From NCBI GenBank assembly GCA_003222195.1, contig QHVB01000029.1, positions 1-64,000 of the forward strand: 64,000 nt of DNA, given 5' to 3'. The stretch's first letter is position 1, and each line of letters opens with the position of its first letter. Shown piece by piece: positions 15,386 through 59,859 of this stretch. The translations under genes were made by a program, and so were the position numbers. This DNA is from Gemmatimonadota bacterium. Lineage in GTDB: Bacteria > Gemmatimonadota > Gemmatimonadetes > Gemmatimonadales > GWC2-71-9. The notes under the pieces were generated by a model. It was not told where the DNA came from. It worked only from the letters and a program-made list of their open reading frames with translations, and did not search any database.

Positions 15386-16110
15386 CGCAATTCACGCGCA
15401 AGAGCCTCGGCGATCCGGAAGTCGTCGGCCGTCGTGATCTTGAAGTTGTACGGCGAATCGGGAATCAGCTCCACCGGAAACCCCGCGCGCTCGCACACCT
15501 CGGCGTCATCGCTTGGCGGCCCGCCATTTGCGGCGGCGCCCAGCCGAGCGTAAGCGTCGTGTAGCATCTGTCGAGGGAATCCCTGCGGCGTTTGAGCCCG
15601 CCAGATGCGCTCGCGATCCACGGTGCGAGTAATGCGCGGCGTCGGGCGGTGGGGGCCCTCGCTGATTTCCTTGAGCGTGTCGGAGGCCGGGACCGCCGCG
15701 ACGGCGCCGACGCCGGCGCGCGCCCGCGCGATTACGGCGTCGATCGTCCCGCGGCTGACGAACGGCCGGGCCGCATCGTGGACGAGAATGATCGTCGCGT
15801 CGTCCGGCAGCGCGTCGAGTCCCGCGCGGACCGAGTCGACACGTTGCGCACCGCCCGGTACGAACCCCAGCCGGTCGCCGCGCAACTTGCCGAGCCAGTC
15901 CGGCGGCCGGTCGACGTACCCCGGCGGGAGCGTGACGACGACTTGGCGCACCTCCGGGTGTCCGATGAAGGCCCGGAGCGCCCGAAGCAGCATGGGCACG
16001 CCGAGGATGGGACGAAACTGCTTCGGTTCTCCTGGACCGGCCCGTACGCCTGCCCCGGCTGCGACCACGACGACGCCGACGTCAGGCGGCGAGGCGGCGG
16101 GTGAGCTCAC
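15382..16110 (-). CDS. ispD: 2-C-methyl-D-erythritol 4-phosphate cytidylyltransferase
   Basis: This enzyme joins CTP to MEP in the non-mevalonate isoprenoid pathway. The nucleotide loop VVVAAGAGVRAG(P) and KQFRPILG near the N-terminus, VHDAARPFVS, and ITRTVDRERIWRAQTPQ are family blocks. GTG 16110 is chosen because GGAGGG lies six bases upstream; a TTG at 16128 is the alternative. The start lies within the end of radA. ispF is not adjacent. Confidence 0.93.
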   Translation of the reverse strand: MSSPAASPPDVGVVVVAAGAGVRAGPGEPKQFRPILGVPMLLRALRAFIGHPEVRQVVVTLPPGYVDRPPDWLGKLRGDRLGFVPGGAQRVDSVRAGLDALPDDATIILVHDAARPFVSRGTIDAVIARARAGVGAVAAVPASDTLKEISEGPHRPTPRITRTVDRERIWRAQTPQGFPRQMLHDAYARLGAAANGGPPSDDAEVCERAGFPVELIPDSPYNFKITTADDFRIAEALARELR

Positions 16111-17440
16111 CGATTCCCTCCAACCCAATCACCTCGAGCTCGTCGCTGGTACCGCGAGAACGCGCCGATAGGTAGACGCGCCGGAATCCCTGGCGCGCCG
16201 CTTCGGCAAGGCGCCGCTCGACGCCGGCCACGGGACGAATCTCACCACCGAGGCCCACCTCGCCGAGGAACAGCGCGTCGGCGGGTACCGGGCGATCGTG
16301 GACCGTGGAGACAAGGGCCGCCAGAATCGCCAAGTCGGTCGAGGGTTCGATCAGACGAACGCCTCCGGTCACATTGACGAATACGTCGAGATTCCCGAAG
16401 GGCAGGCCGCCGCGCCGCTCGAGCACCGCGAGCAGCAAGGCGAGGCGGCGATGATCGAGTCCCGTGGCGACGCGTTGCGGCGTCCCGAATCCCGCCTTTG
16501 ACGCGAGCGCCTGGATCTCGACCAGCATCGGGCGTGTGCCTTCCATCAGCGCCGTCACCGCCGAGCCGGACGCGCCGGTCGTGCGCCCTGCGAGAAACGC
16601 GGCGGCGGGATTGGCGACGGGCTCGAGGCCCGTGCCCGTCATGCGAAAGACACCGATCTCGTCCACCGAGCCGAAGCGGTTCTTCACCGCACGCAGGATC
16701 CGGTGGTCCAGCGTGGTTTCGCCCTCGAAGTACAGCACGGTATCGACGATGTGCTCGAGCGTCTTCGGGCCGGCGATGCCGCCGCCTTTGGTTACGTGCC
16801 CGACGAGCAGGACGGCCGGACCGGATTCTTTGGCGAAGCGCATCAAGCGTGCGGCGCATTCGCGGACCTGCCCCACGTTGCCGGGCGCGCCCTCGAGCTC
16901 GTCGGTGTACGTGGTTTGCACGGAATCGAGGAGCACGACACTCGATTTCAGCTGCGCCGCGTGATGGAGGATCGCTTCGAGCCGGGTTTCGCCGAGCACG
17001 TGGATCCTGCCGGCGTCTTCCTCGAGCCGGTCGGCGCGCAGGCGCAGCTGGTCGGGCGACTCTTCGCCCGAGACGTACAGCGTCGACACCCCTTGGCTCT
17101 CGAGCCGCGCGGCGCATTGCATCAGCAGCGTGGACTTGCCGATCCCCGGCTCGCCGCCGACGAGCGTGACGGAGCCCGGGACTATTCCCCCGCCAAGTAC
17201 GAAATCGAACTCTGCCAACCCGGTGCGCCAGCGGTCAACCTGGCCTCCACTAATGTCGGATAGCCGGATCGGCGGATGGTCGGATGGAACTTGTCGATCC
17301 GCCGATCCGCCGATCCGCCGATTCAGGAGCGCCTCTTCCACCAAGGAATTCCACGCCCCGCACGCGTCACACCGCCCGCCCCATTTCGGCTGATCGGCGC
17401 CGCATTCGGTACAGCGAAACACGGACTTGCCTTTAGACAC
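16082..17440 (-). CDS. radA: DNA repair protein RadA (Sms)
   Basis: RadA is a RecA-like ATPase and helicase that helps branch migration in recombination. The zinc finger is C10, C13, C24, C27. Walker A GGEPGIGKST lies at 95-104, the RadA signature KNRFGSVDEIG follows near 257, and the C-terminal Lon-like domain begins near 300. At 452 residues it is of normal length. The linker between zinc finger and ATPase (about 40-59) is encoded by tandem 8-base repeats, described separately. The GTG start overlaps the dnaB stop by 8 bases. Confidence 0.95.
   Translation of the reverse strand: MSKGKSVFRCTECGADQPKWGGRCDACGAWNSLVEEALLNRRIGGSADRQVPSDHPPIRLSDISGGQVDRWRTGLAEFDFVLGGGIVPGSVTLVGGEPGIGKSTLLMQCAARLESQGVSTLYVSGEESPDQLRLRADRLEEDAGRIHVLGETRLEAILHHAAQLKSSVVLLDSVQTTYTDELEGAPGNVGQVRECAARLMRFAKESGPAVLLVGHVTKGGGIAGPKTLEHIVDTVLYFEGETTLDHRILRAVKNRFGSVDEIGVFRMTGTGLEPVANPAAAFLAGRTTGASGSAVTALMEGTRPMLVEIQALASKAGFGTPQRVATGLDHRRLALLLAVLERRGGLPFGNLDVFVNVTGGVRLIEPSTDLAILAALVSTVHDRPVPADALFLGEVGLGGEIRPVAGVERRLAEAARQGFRRVYLSARSRGTSDELEVIGLEGIGELTRRLAA
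17264..17323. repeat. 8-base tandem repeat with inverted partner inside radA
   Basis: CGATCCGC is repeated three and a half times at 17295-17323. An inverted counterpart, GGATCGGCGGAT, lies at 17265-17276. The two sides could form a hairpin around a loop of about 20 bases. The whole stretch is in frame and encodes the radA linker (RRIGGSADRQVPSDHPP). Because the unit is 8 bases, gain or loss of one copy would shift the frame. Confidence 0.8.
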
Positions 17441-40675: not shown

Positions 40676-42052
40676 ATGCGCACACTGTTCGCGCTCCTGC
40701 TGGTTCTCCCTGGAACATTGCTCGCCCAGGCTGCTTCCCCCTCGCCGCCGGCTGGACGCATCGCCTTCGAGCAGTTCACGCTGCCGAACGGGCTGCGCGT
40801 GATCTATTCCGAAGATCACTCGACGCCGATCGTCACGGTCGATGTGTGGTACGAGGTCGGCTCGCGCAACGAGCGCGCCGGCCGCTCCGGTTTCGCCCAC
40901 CTCTTCGAACACATGATGTTCGAGGGCTCGGCGCACGTGAAGAAATCGGAGCATGGGCAGCTCGTGGAGCGGGCCGGCGGCAACTACAACGGCAGCACCG
41001 CCGAGGACCGGACCAACTACTACGAGACGGTGCCGTCGAATCGCCTCAATTTGGCGCTGTGGCTCGAGGCGGATCGGATGCGGTCGCTCGCGATCACGGA
41101 GGACAAGTTCGAGAATCAGCGCCAGGCGGTGAAGGAGGAGCGCCGGCTCCGCGTCGACAATCAGCCCTACGCCGGAGCGTTTACCGACGGTCTCACGTGG
41201 CCGTTCGACAGCACGACGTGCTTCCCGTACGCGCACACGGTGATCGGTTCGATGGCCGATCTCGACGCGGCGAAGCTGGCGGATGTCCAGGCGTTCTTCG
41301 ATACGTACTATGCGCCGAACAACGCCACGCTGGTGGTGGTCGGCGACTTCAGCCCGGGCGAGCTGCGGCGCTTGGTGAATCAGTACTTCGCCGGCGTGCC
41401 GAGTCATGCCGCGCCCGAAGCGCCGCGCTGTGACGCCGGGACGGCGGCGGCGAAAGCGGCGCAACGGCGGGAAGTGCACGACCCCCACGCCAATCTCGAT
41501 CTGGTCATGCGGCTGTATCGCATTCCCGAACATCGCAGCGCGGACACCCCGGCCCTCGAAGTCCTCAACATCATCCTCGGCCAGGGCGAGAGCTCCCGGC
41601 TGAATGTGTCGGTGGTGCGGCGCGACAAGGCGGCGGTCGGGGCGGGTTCGATCTTGAATCCCTATGGGTCACGCAACGGTCCAGGCGTGCTGGCCGCCTA
41701 TGGCATCGTCAATCAGGGTGTCTCGGCCGACCGCCTCGACAGCCTGCTCAGTCAGCAGCTCGATTCCATCCGCGCGAACGGCATCAGCGCGGCGGAACTC
41801 GACAAGGCCAAGAACATCCTCCGGGCGGGATTCATCGACAACCGTGAGACGACCTTCGGGAAAGCCGAGGAGCTGCACCATTATCTCACGTTCCATTCGA
41901 CGATCGATGAGATCAACACCGATCTCGACCACCTGCTGACGGTGACGAGCGACGACGTGAAGCGCGTCGCGAACGCGTATCTCGCGCCGGCGAATCTGAC
42001 GCGGCTGATCGTCCGCGCGGGTGCGGGTCCGACGTCCGGAGGTGGCCAATGA
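40676..42052 (+). CDS. M16 zinc peptidase, catalytic partner
   Basis: An exported 458-residue peptidase with a signal peptide (MRTLFALLLVLPGTLLAQA). The inverted zinc motif HxxEH is H75-LFE-H79 (FAHLFEHMMFEG), with a downstream Glu in WLEADRM. Two M16 domains of about 210 residues follow. It overlaps a second M16-like gene (ATGA) that lacks the zinc motif; the two probably form an M16B heterodimer in the periplasm like other paired bacterial M16 proteins. Confidence 0.92.
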   Translation: MRTLFALLLVLPGTLLAQAASPSPPAGRIAFEQFTLPNGLRVIYSEDHSTPIVTVDVWYEVGSRNERAGRSGFAHLFEHMMFEGSAHVKKSEHGQLVERAGGNYNGSTAEDRTNYYETVPSNRLNLALWLEADRMRSLAITEDKFENQRQAVKEERRLRVDNQPYAGAFTDGLTWPFDSTTCFPYAHTVIGSMADLDAAKLADVQAFFDTYYAPNNATLVVVGDFSPGELRRLVNQYFAGVPSHAAPEAPRCDAGTAAAKAAQRREVHDPHANLDLVMRLYRIPEHRSADTPALEVLNIILGQGESSRLNVSVVRRDKAAVGAGSILNPYGSRNGPGVLAAYGIVNQGVSADRLDSLLSQQLDSIRANGISAAELDKAKNILRAGFIDNRETTFGKAEELHHYLTFHSTIDEINTDLDHLLTVTSDDVKRVANAYLAPANLTRLIVRAGAGPTSGGGQ

Positions 42053-44160
42053 AGCCGTGGAACGTTGGACGGTTGGACGGTTGGAAGGTGGGAATGTTGA
42101 CAGTGTGGACACTGTCCAACATTCCCACCTTCCAACTTTCCGCGCAGGAGCCCTTCCCCACGCGTCCGCCCGCGCCTGTACGGCTGCGCCCGGTCCAGTT
42201 TCCGCCATTCCGCGAAGTCGCGCTGCCGAACGGAATGACGCTCCTCCTCGTCGAGAATCACGAACAGCCGACGCTGTCGGTCAGTCTGAGCTTCCGCGCG
42301 GGGAGCGCCTATGATCCCGCCGGCAAGGAAGGCGTCGCGGCGATTGTGGCGGAGCTGCTGACCAAGGGCACGCCCACGCAGAACGCCGAGCAGATCGCCG
42401 AGGCGATCGAAGGTGTCGGCGGCAGCATCGGGGCGAGCGCGGGAGACGATTTTCTCGCGGTGTCCGCCGACGTGCTGAGCGATCACGCCGAGCTGGCGTT
42501 CTCGCTGCTCGGCGACGTGACCCGGCGCGCGACGTTCCCCGATCAGGAGCTCGAGCTGGCGCGCACCCGATTCCTGTCAGCGCTCGAAGTCGAGCTGTCA
42601 CAGGCCCAAAACGTGGCCGGCCGGGCGTTCCAGCAGGAGATCTACGGGCGCAATCCCTACGGCCGGAACACGAGCGCCGCCGCGTACAAGGCGATTACGC
42701 GCGACGATGTGGTCGGGTTCGCGGGACGACGGCTGCGGCCGACTGGCTCACTGCTCGTCGTCGCGGGTGACATCACTCTGCCGCGCGCCCGCGAGCTCGC
42801 GACGCAGGCGTTCGGCAGCTGGCACGGCGCCGCGCCCCCGGCGCCGGCATTCCCCGCCCCGCCGGCCAAGCGAGGCACGGATATTCTGCTCGTCAATCGG
42901 CCGGGCTCGGTCCAATCGAACATCGTCATCGGCAACACCACGTTCCTGCCGACCGACACGACGTACTACGCGGCGCGCATCGCGACTCACGTGTTGGGCG
43001 GCGGCTCGGACTCGCGCCTTTTCATCATACTGCGCGAACAAAAGAGCTGGACCTACGGCTCCTACGCGGCACTGCGCCGCAACCGGGGTGTGGGTTTCTG
43101 GCAGGCGACGTTCGAGGGGCGCACTGAAGTGACCGACAGCGCGCTGACGGAGTTGCTGCACCAGATCGATCGCATCCGTACGGAAGCGATTCCCGACAGC
43201 GAGCTCGTGGCGGCGAAGGGATTTCTCGTGGGCTCCTTCCCGCTGACGATCGAAACGCCGCGGCAGATCGCCCAGGTGGTGTCGACGTCTCGGCTCCTCG
43301 GGCTGGGTTCGGACTACGTCCAACACTACCGCGAGCGGCTTGCCCGGGTGAGCGCGGCGCGCGCGCGTGCTGCGGCGCAACGCGCGATTCACCGCGACGC
43401 TTTCACCATCGTTGTCGTCGGCGACGCCAAGGCGCTGTACGACAGACTCAAAGCGATCGCCCCCGTGCGCCTCGTGGACATCGCGGGTAAGGCGACGGAT
43501 CCCGCAGAGCTCAATCCCAAAGGCGGGCCGGTCGCGTTCGATCGCAGTCAAATCGTCGCACGCAGCGACACCTTCCACGCGTTGGTCCAAGGCAACGTGC
43601 TCGGCGGCCAGGCGGCGAAGGTCGACGTGATGGGCGATTCGATCGTCTATACGGAAGCGACGACGATCGGCCAGTTCCAGCAGCTGTCGCGCGTGGTGTT
43701 GAACAGCGATCTCTCGATGCGGCGCACCGATCAAACCGGCACGGTCCAGGGTCAGCATACGGAGATCCATCTGAGCTACGCCGAGGGACGCGTCAAAGGC
43801 ACGTCGATGAGCCCGCAACCGGGCGGCACGCCTAAATCGATCACAGTAGATACGACCATCCCCGCGGGCACAATCGACGACAACGTCCTGGCGCTGCTCT
43901 TGACCGCGCTGCCGCTCGAACAAGGGAAGACGTTCAACCTGAACGTGTTCTCGACCGGCGAGGGCACGACGAAAGTCGTCAGCGTGAAGGTCGCTGCCTT
44001 CGAGAACGTGGCCGTCCCGGCCGGGACCTTCCCGGCGTATCGCCTCGAGCTGTCGGGAATGCAGCTGCCGCTCGTGATGCACGTGACCCAGCAAGCGCCG
44101 CGGCGGATCGTCCGGATCGCACCGACCGGGGCGCCGCTGGTGTTTGAACTCGTGAAATAA
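42049..44160 (+). CDS. M16-like non-catalytic partner with extra C-terminal domain
   Basis: A 703-residue exported protein. At the position of HxxEH it has GVAAIVAELLTKG, so the zinc site is missing. The R/Y pocket of the C-domain (SRLFIILREQKSWTYGSYA) is kept, as expected for the substrate-binding half of an M16B pair. The last 200 residues (after about 500) form an added beta-rich domain, perhaps DUF3108-like. The signal peptide (residues 1-33) is encoded almost wholly by a palindromic repeat. The start is fixed by the ATGA overlap with the catalytic gene. Confidence 0.82.
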   Translation: MKPWNVGRLDGWKVGMLTVWTLSNIPTFQLSAQEPFPTRPPAPVRLRPVQFPPFREVALPNGMTLLLVENHEQPTLSVSLSFRAGSAYDPAGKEGVAAIVAELLTKGTPTQNAEQIAEAIEGVGGSIGASAGDDFLAVSADVLSDHAELAFSLLGDVTRRATFPDQELELARTRFLSALEVELSQAQNVAGRAFQQEIYGRNPYGRNTSAAAYKAITRDDVVGFAGRRLRPTGSLLVVAGDITLPRARELATQAFGSWHGAAPPAPAFPAPPAKRGTDILLVNRPGSVQSNIVIGNTTFLPTDTTYYAARIATHVLGGGSDSRLFIILREQKSWTYGSYAALRRNRGVGFWQATFEGRTEVTDSALTELLHQIDRIRTEAIPDSELVAAKGFLVGSFPLTIETPRQIAQVVSTSRLLGLGSDYVQHYRERLARVSAARARAAAQRAIHRDAFTIVVVGDAKALYDRLKAIAPVRLVDIAGKATDPAELNPKGGPVAFDRSQIVARSDTFHALVQGNVLGGQAAKVDVMGDSIVYTEATTIGQFQQLSRVVLNSDLSMRRTDQTGTVQGQHTEIHLSYAEGRVKGTSMSPQPGGTPKSITVDTTIPAGTIDDNVLALLLTALPLEQGKTFNLNVFSTGEGTTKVVSVKVAAFENVAVPAGTFPAYRLELSGMQLPLVMHVTQQAPRRIVRIAPTGAPLVFELVK
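42064..42135. repeat. 8-base tandem plus near-perfect palindrome in a signal peptide
   Basis: GTTGGACG is repeated 2.75 times at 42064-42085. It leads into a palindrome with arms 42081-42105 and 42110-42135 that pair except for one extra base, around a 4-base loop. The element lies wholly inside the M16-like reading frame and encodes residues 6-29 of the protein. Confidence 0.85.
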
Positions 44161-59497: not shown

Positions 59498-59859
59498 GTG
59501 TGCACCTCGATCTCCAGGCGCAGGAGCGCCGTGGAGAAGACCTTGCCTTGCGCATCCGTCTTGAGCGAGATGGTGCCGCCGCCATCCAGCGCGCCGTGCA
59601 ACAGGAAGTTCAGCGCGTAGAGGTTGGGCAGCTCGAAGCGCTCGACCTTGCCGGTGATCATGCCCTTAAAATGTCGCGCCACGCGCGCGGCCGTCACCTG
59701 CTTCACGAGTAACGGGTAGTCCCGCGGCTTGAGCGCGATGAGCCCGATATTGGCGGTGTCCCCTTTATCACCCGATCGAGCGTGGGCGAGGTCTACGAGC
59801 CGGACCTTGCGCGCCCGTGACCGTCCGGCCGTCCGGCCGAGCGACCGTCGTTGTTTCAT
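59494..59859 (-). CDS. Small AtuA-like (AtuA C-terminal-domain) protein
   Basis: A 121-residue protein with the block [12 protein letters not shown] that is typical of the AtuA C-terminal domain. In many bacteria AtuA is one chain; here the domain is a separate gene overlapping atuA (ATGA). The first 18 residues ([15 protein letters not shown]) are encoded by an 8-base repeat (CCGTCCGG twice at 59821-59836) and are not part of the family core. Confidence 0.78.
59821..59836. repeat. 8-base tandem repeat at the AtuA-like N-terminus
   Basis: CCGTCCGG is present twice in a row, in the part of the gene before the conserved core begins. The minus-strand form ACGGCCGG differs at two bases from the ACGGTTGG unit in the M16-like gene. 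Confidence 0.7.

Follow-up and report, generated by a model that had tools for sequence, protein, structure and literature searches.

The 64,000-nucleotide stretch of DNA analysed here (referred to below as the window) contains a gene with early codons written in a palindromic repeat, and the locus raises the question of how such a repeat could come to encode what reads as the export signal of a protein. The gene (42049..44160, plus strand) encodes an M16 peptidase-like protein of 703 amino acids with a DUF3108 domain. In a Pfam scan, the protein matched Peptidase_M16, Peptidase_M16_C, and DUF3108, with both M16 domains above the Pfam cut-off.

The region 42064-42135 has the sequence GTTGGACG GTTGGACG GTTGGAAG GTGGGAATGTTG..., in agreement with the initial annotation, which had described tandem units and an in-frame, near-perfect palindrome forming residues 6-29; both the sequence and the translation bear this out. 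The tandem octamers GTTGGACG GTTGGACG GTTGGAAG, located by sequence and octamer scan, form an array at the 5' side (42064..42087, plus strand) and run into the palindrome, and codons 6-29, read in frame from the ATG at 42049, give VGRLDGWKVGMLTVWTLSNIPTFQ. The 5' arm occupies positions 42080..42106 and the 3' arm positions 42109..42136 of the plus strand, with a perfect core in which all 20 bases of 42080-42099 pair with 42117-42136; the 3' arm encodes the SNIPTFQ of the c-region. The extended pairing of 42075-42106 with 42109-42141 includes a single 1-base bulge and some mismatches toward the outside. The sizes given earlier (arms of 25 and 26 bases, a 4-base loop) were corrected to 27 and 28 bases with a loop of 2-4 bases, according to the way the bulge is counted. 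When the inverted repeats of the window were ranked (arms of at least 14 bases, at most one mismatch), this element was the longest, with 20 bp versus 17, 15, 15, and 15 bp elsewhere, and the longest inverted repeats in three codon-shuffled windows were 14-17 bp. A single hairpin of ~27 bp dominated the predicted RNA fold of 42049-42150 (-58.6 kcal/mol).

The stretch 42049..42147 (plus strand) encodes a candidate signal peptide, MKPWNVGRLDGWKVGMLTVWTLSNIPTFQLSAQ, in which the order of parts is that of a Sec signal peptide: a basic n-region, the core VGMLTVWTL, and LSA ahead of the likely cut before Q. The sequence features of a Sec signal peptide were recognized by simple rules at a hydrophobicity cut of 1.3; the core is moderately hydrophobic, since its best 8-residue mean (1.43) lies above this permissive cut and below the stricter one of 1.6. 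According to the proposed scheme, the 5' arm would encode the Arg/Lys-bearing n-region, the spacer and the arm ends would give the hydrophobic core, and the 3' arm would encode the c-region L[ST]xxPxx[RQ]L[SA]AQ ahead of the cleavage site. We infer an export function; in orthologues, the corresponding position is taken by an ordinary signal peptide, for example MRPRLLSIVAPLLVSAPLAAQ in G006. This supports the view that the repeat provides the sole stretch of the M16 protein that reads as an export signal. The same comparison favors the earlier suggestion that the repeat became, or replaced, an export signal as far as targeting is concerned; the notion of a singular event did not hold. None of about 77 orthologues had the same N-terminal peptide without the repeat at the DNA level, which had been named as the case that would speak against the suggestion.

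A search of the genome and its relatives showed that the repeat is recurrent rather than a one-off, and that genera share its sites but not its octamers. The DNA of the M16 element alone had 18 matches in its own genome (G000). The family pattern was defined as two octamers, a spacer, and an inverted half-octamer (GTYGGANNGTYGGA..TCCRAC); it was found 34 times in G000, 38 times in G002, 61 times in G019, and 17-31 times in several further genera, with 28-31 matches in G062, G174, and G229. The comparative genomes of the family are metagenome-assembled. The reversed control pattern gave three matches in all 395 genomes of the phylum sample, and f2, the order's other large family in this sample, had 0-3 pattern matches per genome. 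A sequence-independent period-8 scan of 734 kb of G000, in contiguous stretches including the window, revealed 30 arrays versus 1-3 after codon shuffling. Among them were seven distinct inverted elements: four in predicted N-terminal signal peptides, one in the linker of RadA, and two internal to other proteins. The arrays have a common anatomy, in which a few units of roughly GNYGGNNR are inverted around a short spacer. Several octamer types (GTTGGAMG, GTCGGACG, GGCGGATC, and GGCGGTTA) occur in G000, which ruled out one octamer type per genome.

To describe where the elements lie, 71 pattern-defined elements from eleven genomes were classified with a codon-usage gene caller. Twenty-three were N-terminal with a hydrophobic core overlapping the element, as in putative Sec-type signal peptides; 13 were N-terminal without such a core by the rule used, some of them Tat-like (e.g., MKRREFLVSVGRTVGLSVGADFMGF); 23 were internal and in frame, and 12 were intergenic. 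In-frame, stop-free palindromes within protein genes, the arrangement known from Rickettsia palindromic elements (RPEs), therefore comprised 36 N-terminal and 23 internal elements of the 71. The class with a core (23/71) was 7.3-fold more frequent than among random 63-base intervals of G000 (4.5%), with a p value of 3e-14 that overstates the evidence, as many elements are orthologous and not independent; even so, about 13 distinct protein families contribute. In five unrelated proteins of G000 the c-region is nearly the same (LSNIPTFQLSAQ, LSNLPTFQLSAQ, LSNLPTFPLSAQ, LSNIPTVNLSAQ, and LSNIPTVQLCAQ). One-sided arrays were also observed: the window has tandem octamers GACCGTCCGGCCGTCC without an inverted partner at the start of a called ORF (59819-59847), and two other G000 proteins (L291, 19799-19838; L292, 12844-12883) carry FQPPNRPSAHPPLFRDVTAQ and IRPSAHPPLFSDITDRV at similar places, perhaps as an arm without its partner.

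The octamer length itself helps to account for the tolerance of such arrays in coding DNA. Because 8 and 3 are coprime, octamers in tandem give the same cyclic run of eight residues whichever of the three frames is read, and many units, such as GTTGGAMG and GTCGGACR, contain no stop on either strand; when arrayed in tandem, 46% of all octamers lack stops in six frames, with GTTGGACG, GTTGGAAG, and GTCGGACG among them. Arrays can thus be tolerated at loosely constrained places such as signal peptides, linkers, loops, and gene ends. One strand encodes Arg-rich VGRLDGWT-like peptides, and its complement PTVRLS/PTFQPSN-like ones, two kinds of peptide that fit the n- and c-regions of signal peptides.

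Comparison of orthologues demonstrated that the sites are conserved and that their octamers differ between genera (GTTGGAMG, GTCGGACR, GGCGGATA, and GGCGGTTA at shared sites). The M16 signal peptide region was palindromic in 18 of 27 orthologues of the family versus 1 of 40 distant ones (z>4), the latter having ordinary signal peptides. The octamers at this site were GTTGGAMG (L127), GTTGGAAC/GGAATGAT (L097, L094), GTCGGACR (L099, L106, L108), GGCGGATA with the inverse TATCCGGC (L113), GGCGGTTA with the inverse TAACCGCC (L118), and GGTCGGGC (L103), and despite these changes the register of the c-region remained constant. A second element of the window (GGCGGATC octamers with inverted partners; 17263..17326, minus strand) was found by octamer scan, inverted-repeat ranking, and orthologue comparison in the RadA gene (16082-17440, minus strand), where it forms the linker between the zinc finger and the ATPase. 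Fourteen of 30 RadA linkers were palindromic, with octamers of several types, and the linker was mostly 36 aa with or without the palindrome; the element thus overwrites the linker and leaves its length unchanged. Elements with different octamers occupied the same sites across genera in RadA, Tgt (four genera), MeaB-like (three), XdhB-like (two), PorV-like, TPR, LolA-like, and TupA-like proteins, these names being assigned by sequence recognition and the M16 name by Pfam scan. In the TPR protein, for instance, the same site carries GGCGGTTA in G000, GTTGGAAT in G002, GGCGGATG in G196, and GTCGGACA in G019. The element of the XdhB-like FAD-binding protein (L007, L279) lies at the same place in G000 and G230 (RRLDGWNVGTCVTLSALSSLPTF / RKLDGWTVGTCLTLSELSDVPTF) and apparently overwrites rather than interrupts the protein.

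In addition to the turnover of octamers, the two arms of an element were found to vary together. The 5' arms of M16 orthologues matched their own 3' arms better than those of other orthologues (18.6 versus 11.9), as did the arms of RadA (19.8 versus 13.1), with a permutation p of 5e-5 in both cases, which is the limit of the test. Arms are thus homogenized within a locus and not between loci at both sites, the pattern by which template switching was to be recognized. One pair of M16 genes illustrates the same point, as a single pair and not a polarized tree: where the 5' arm has GTGGG in G000 and GTTGG in G002, the 3' arm has CCCAC and CCAAC, respectively, so that the G000 variant is mirrored across the element. 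In place of the G002 spacer, G000 has GACAGTGT, which repeats in inverted orientation the neighboring ACACTGTC common to both genomes. The replacement creates a perfect inner palindrome and turns the VFT of the signal peptide core into TVWT. Such mirrored differences are what a hairpin template switch would give. In the closest M16 orthologue, about 95% identical (G009; L035/L114), the element is different and frame-broken, which may reflect genuine slippage or a fault in the assembly. Between G000 and G009, recombination with a breakpoint at the element was rejected, as the identity of the flanks was mostly 0.92-0.98 and dropped to 0.74-0.82 only around the element.

The obtained data, which are those of comparative sequence analysis, make it probable that the M16 feature belongs to a set of in-frame inverted octamer arrays extending across the clade, that it was exapted as a signal peptide, and that it is maintained by slippage and hairpin template switching, not by fresh insertion. 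We infer two steps in this maintenance. Local replication slippage would multiply octamer units within an arm, and template switching at the hairpin (quasipalindrome) would copy one arm onto the other; together they would leave each site palindromic while its octamer drifts, and the process would keep rewriting signal peptides that still work. Template switching is known to homogenize the arms of inverted repeats in yeast coding genes (PMC8604942). In yeast, as reportedly in E. coli (PMC7202029), an arm is copied onto the other and several residues change at once, as proposed here; however, those mutations are sporadic, whereas here the events appear to recur at fixed sites, over genus-level time and with octamer periodicity. 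Generic template switching does not explain a period of exactly 8 across octamer types. A further possibility, which we put forward only tentatively, is a continuing process specific to the clade, in which slippage of octamers together with template switching at hairpins, perhaps aided by a dedicated factor, would rewrite signal peptides and linkers at fixed sites and act as a transposition-independent engine for the diversification of export signals.

The initial annotation had left a mobile or slippage-derived origin open, and the results favor slippage. It is unlikely that the elements are non-autonomous mobile elements of the RPE, MITE, or REP kind that inserted in frame and were kept as signal peptides at gene starts, although the copies are dispersed and palindromic and lie both between and within genes, as RPEs do. 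The likeness to Rickettsia that had been pointed out is apt, as the M16 element is one of many in-frame palindromes. However, RPEs are ~105-146 bp long with a recognizable family sequence (PMC2229807), whereas the present elements are shorter, share no such sequence, and are built of an 8-mer unit that changes between orthologous sites and species; in addition, a third of the copies are predicted signal peptides. A precedent for a signal peptide derived from a repeat element exists in Yersinia, where the YPAL/RU-2 MITE (168 bp) partly forms the predicted signal peptide of YPO1552, a putative protein of 144 aa (PMC2229807); that is a single case, unlike the octamer arrays in many predicted secreted, conserved proteins of many species described here. 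The M16 signal peptides with a palindrome also run to 31-34 aa up to AQ, which exceeds the 20-24 aa of some that lack the repeat and speaks for insertion. Against this, different octamers occupy the same site across genera, several octamer types coexist in one genome, and the unchanged length of the RadA linker argues against recent mobile insertion and for in-place slippage with arm homogenization. REP/BIME elements with RAYT resemble the present ones as short dispersed hairpins in tens of copies, but they are mostly extragenic and bear conserved tags. As a driver, a RAYT/Y1 transposase was rejected: Y1 genes do not track the elements, with none found in G174 or G230 and some present in element-poor genomes, and no elements lie at or near Y1 genes. 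A non-exhaustive search identified no target duplications at the elements. Slippage with template switching and mobile insertion could both have contributed, at different times.

We consider it quite improbable that selection on nucleic-acid structure, acting on an mRNA hairpin at the very beginning of the coding region or on a DNA cruciform or protein site, keeps the palindrome and that the peptide simply follows. The co-variation of arms at conserved sites, the strong predicted hairpin, and the position of elements at gene starts and between genes are consistent with such selection. However, sense-strand G-T mismatches did not consistently exceed A-C mismatches (34 versus 23 and 30 versus 38; 64 versus 61 in total), and thus there was no sign of RNA wobble pairing; the octamer varies by locus and species, unlike a protein site, and orthologues without a palindrome are common. 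No Rfam family was matched at the gathering threshold, and a known RNA family was dismissed, as the only matches were sub-threshold miRNA ones, such as any perfect hairpin gives.

A start of translation within or after the repeat, with the array as an untranslated leader, is very unlikely. The in-frame ATG at 42094 is preceded by GGAAGGTGGG, and in-frame TTG/GTG codons occur at 42073, 42088, 42097, and 42103. However, the ATG at 42049 follows a Shine-Dalgarno sequence, GGAGGT (42038..42043, plus strand), at a spacing of 5 nt and is coupled to the stop of the upstream gene by an ATGA overlap. Close orthologues with different repeats start at the corresponding place, and a start at 42094 would leave no basic n-region. 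The upstream gene (40676..42052, plus strand), identified by translation and codon-usage gene calling, encodes another M16-like protein, which has an ordinary signal peptide (MRTLFALLLVLPGTLLAQ). As a separate observation, GGAAGGTGGG is supplied by the octamer array itself (42088-42096); octamer arrays could also serve as ribosome-binding sites, and in several elements (e.g., L231 and L252) the start codon as called falls within or beyond the 5' arm.

That the signal peptide is an ordinary one and its palindrome a by-product of amino-acid constraint or chance is hardly credible: a signal peptide does require basic, hydrophobic, and small residues, but the 20-bp perfect core exceeds all else in the window or its shuffles, distant orthologues have ordinary signal peptides without a palindrome, and the same octamers are also present within cytosolic proteins and in intergenic DNA.

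The usual account of signal peptides is that they are loosely constrained and evolve fast through point mutations. In the present case, whole signal peptides appear to be created, and created anew, by a DNA process driven by repeats, in parallel across many genes and species. In these uncultured soil Gemmatimonadota, a process at the DNA level seems to keep rewriting working segments of proteins. The elements are concrete, countable loci for asking how palindromic repeats yield functional N-terminal sequence, and the octamer palindromes offer a natural experiment, in bacteria, on how template switching acts on coding DNA over the long term. In-frame palindromes (Rickettsia), a MITE-derived signal peptide (Yersinia), and coding palindromes (Nematomorpha) are already known. 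In the mitochondria of Nematomorpha, long inverted repeats of up to 284 bp lie in coding sequence, and both arms encode conserved regions (PMC6649704). Protein and palindrome are kept together there, as here, but those repeats are mitochondrial and are neither octamer arrays nor signal peptides. In the open-licence literature searched, we found no earlier report of such elements in Gemmatimonadota, nor of recurrent inverted octamer arrays as signal peptides with conserved sites and octamer turnover. Two further proteins, L049 and L047 (G032 and G030, from another family of the order), have M16-type candidate signal peptides on GTTGCAGG-like tandem octamers, which suggests that the phenomenon reaches beyond the family of the window, with another unit.
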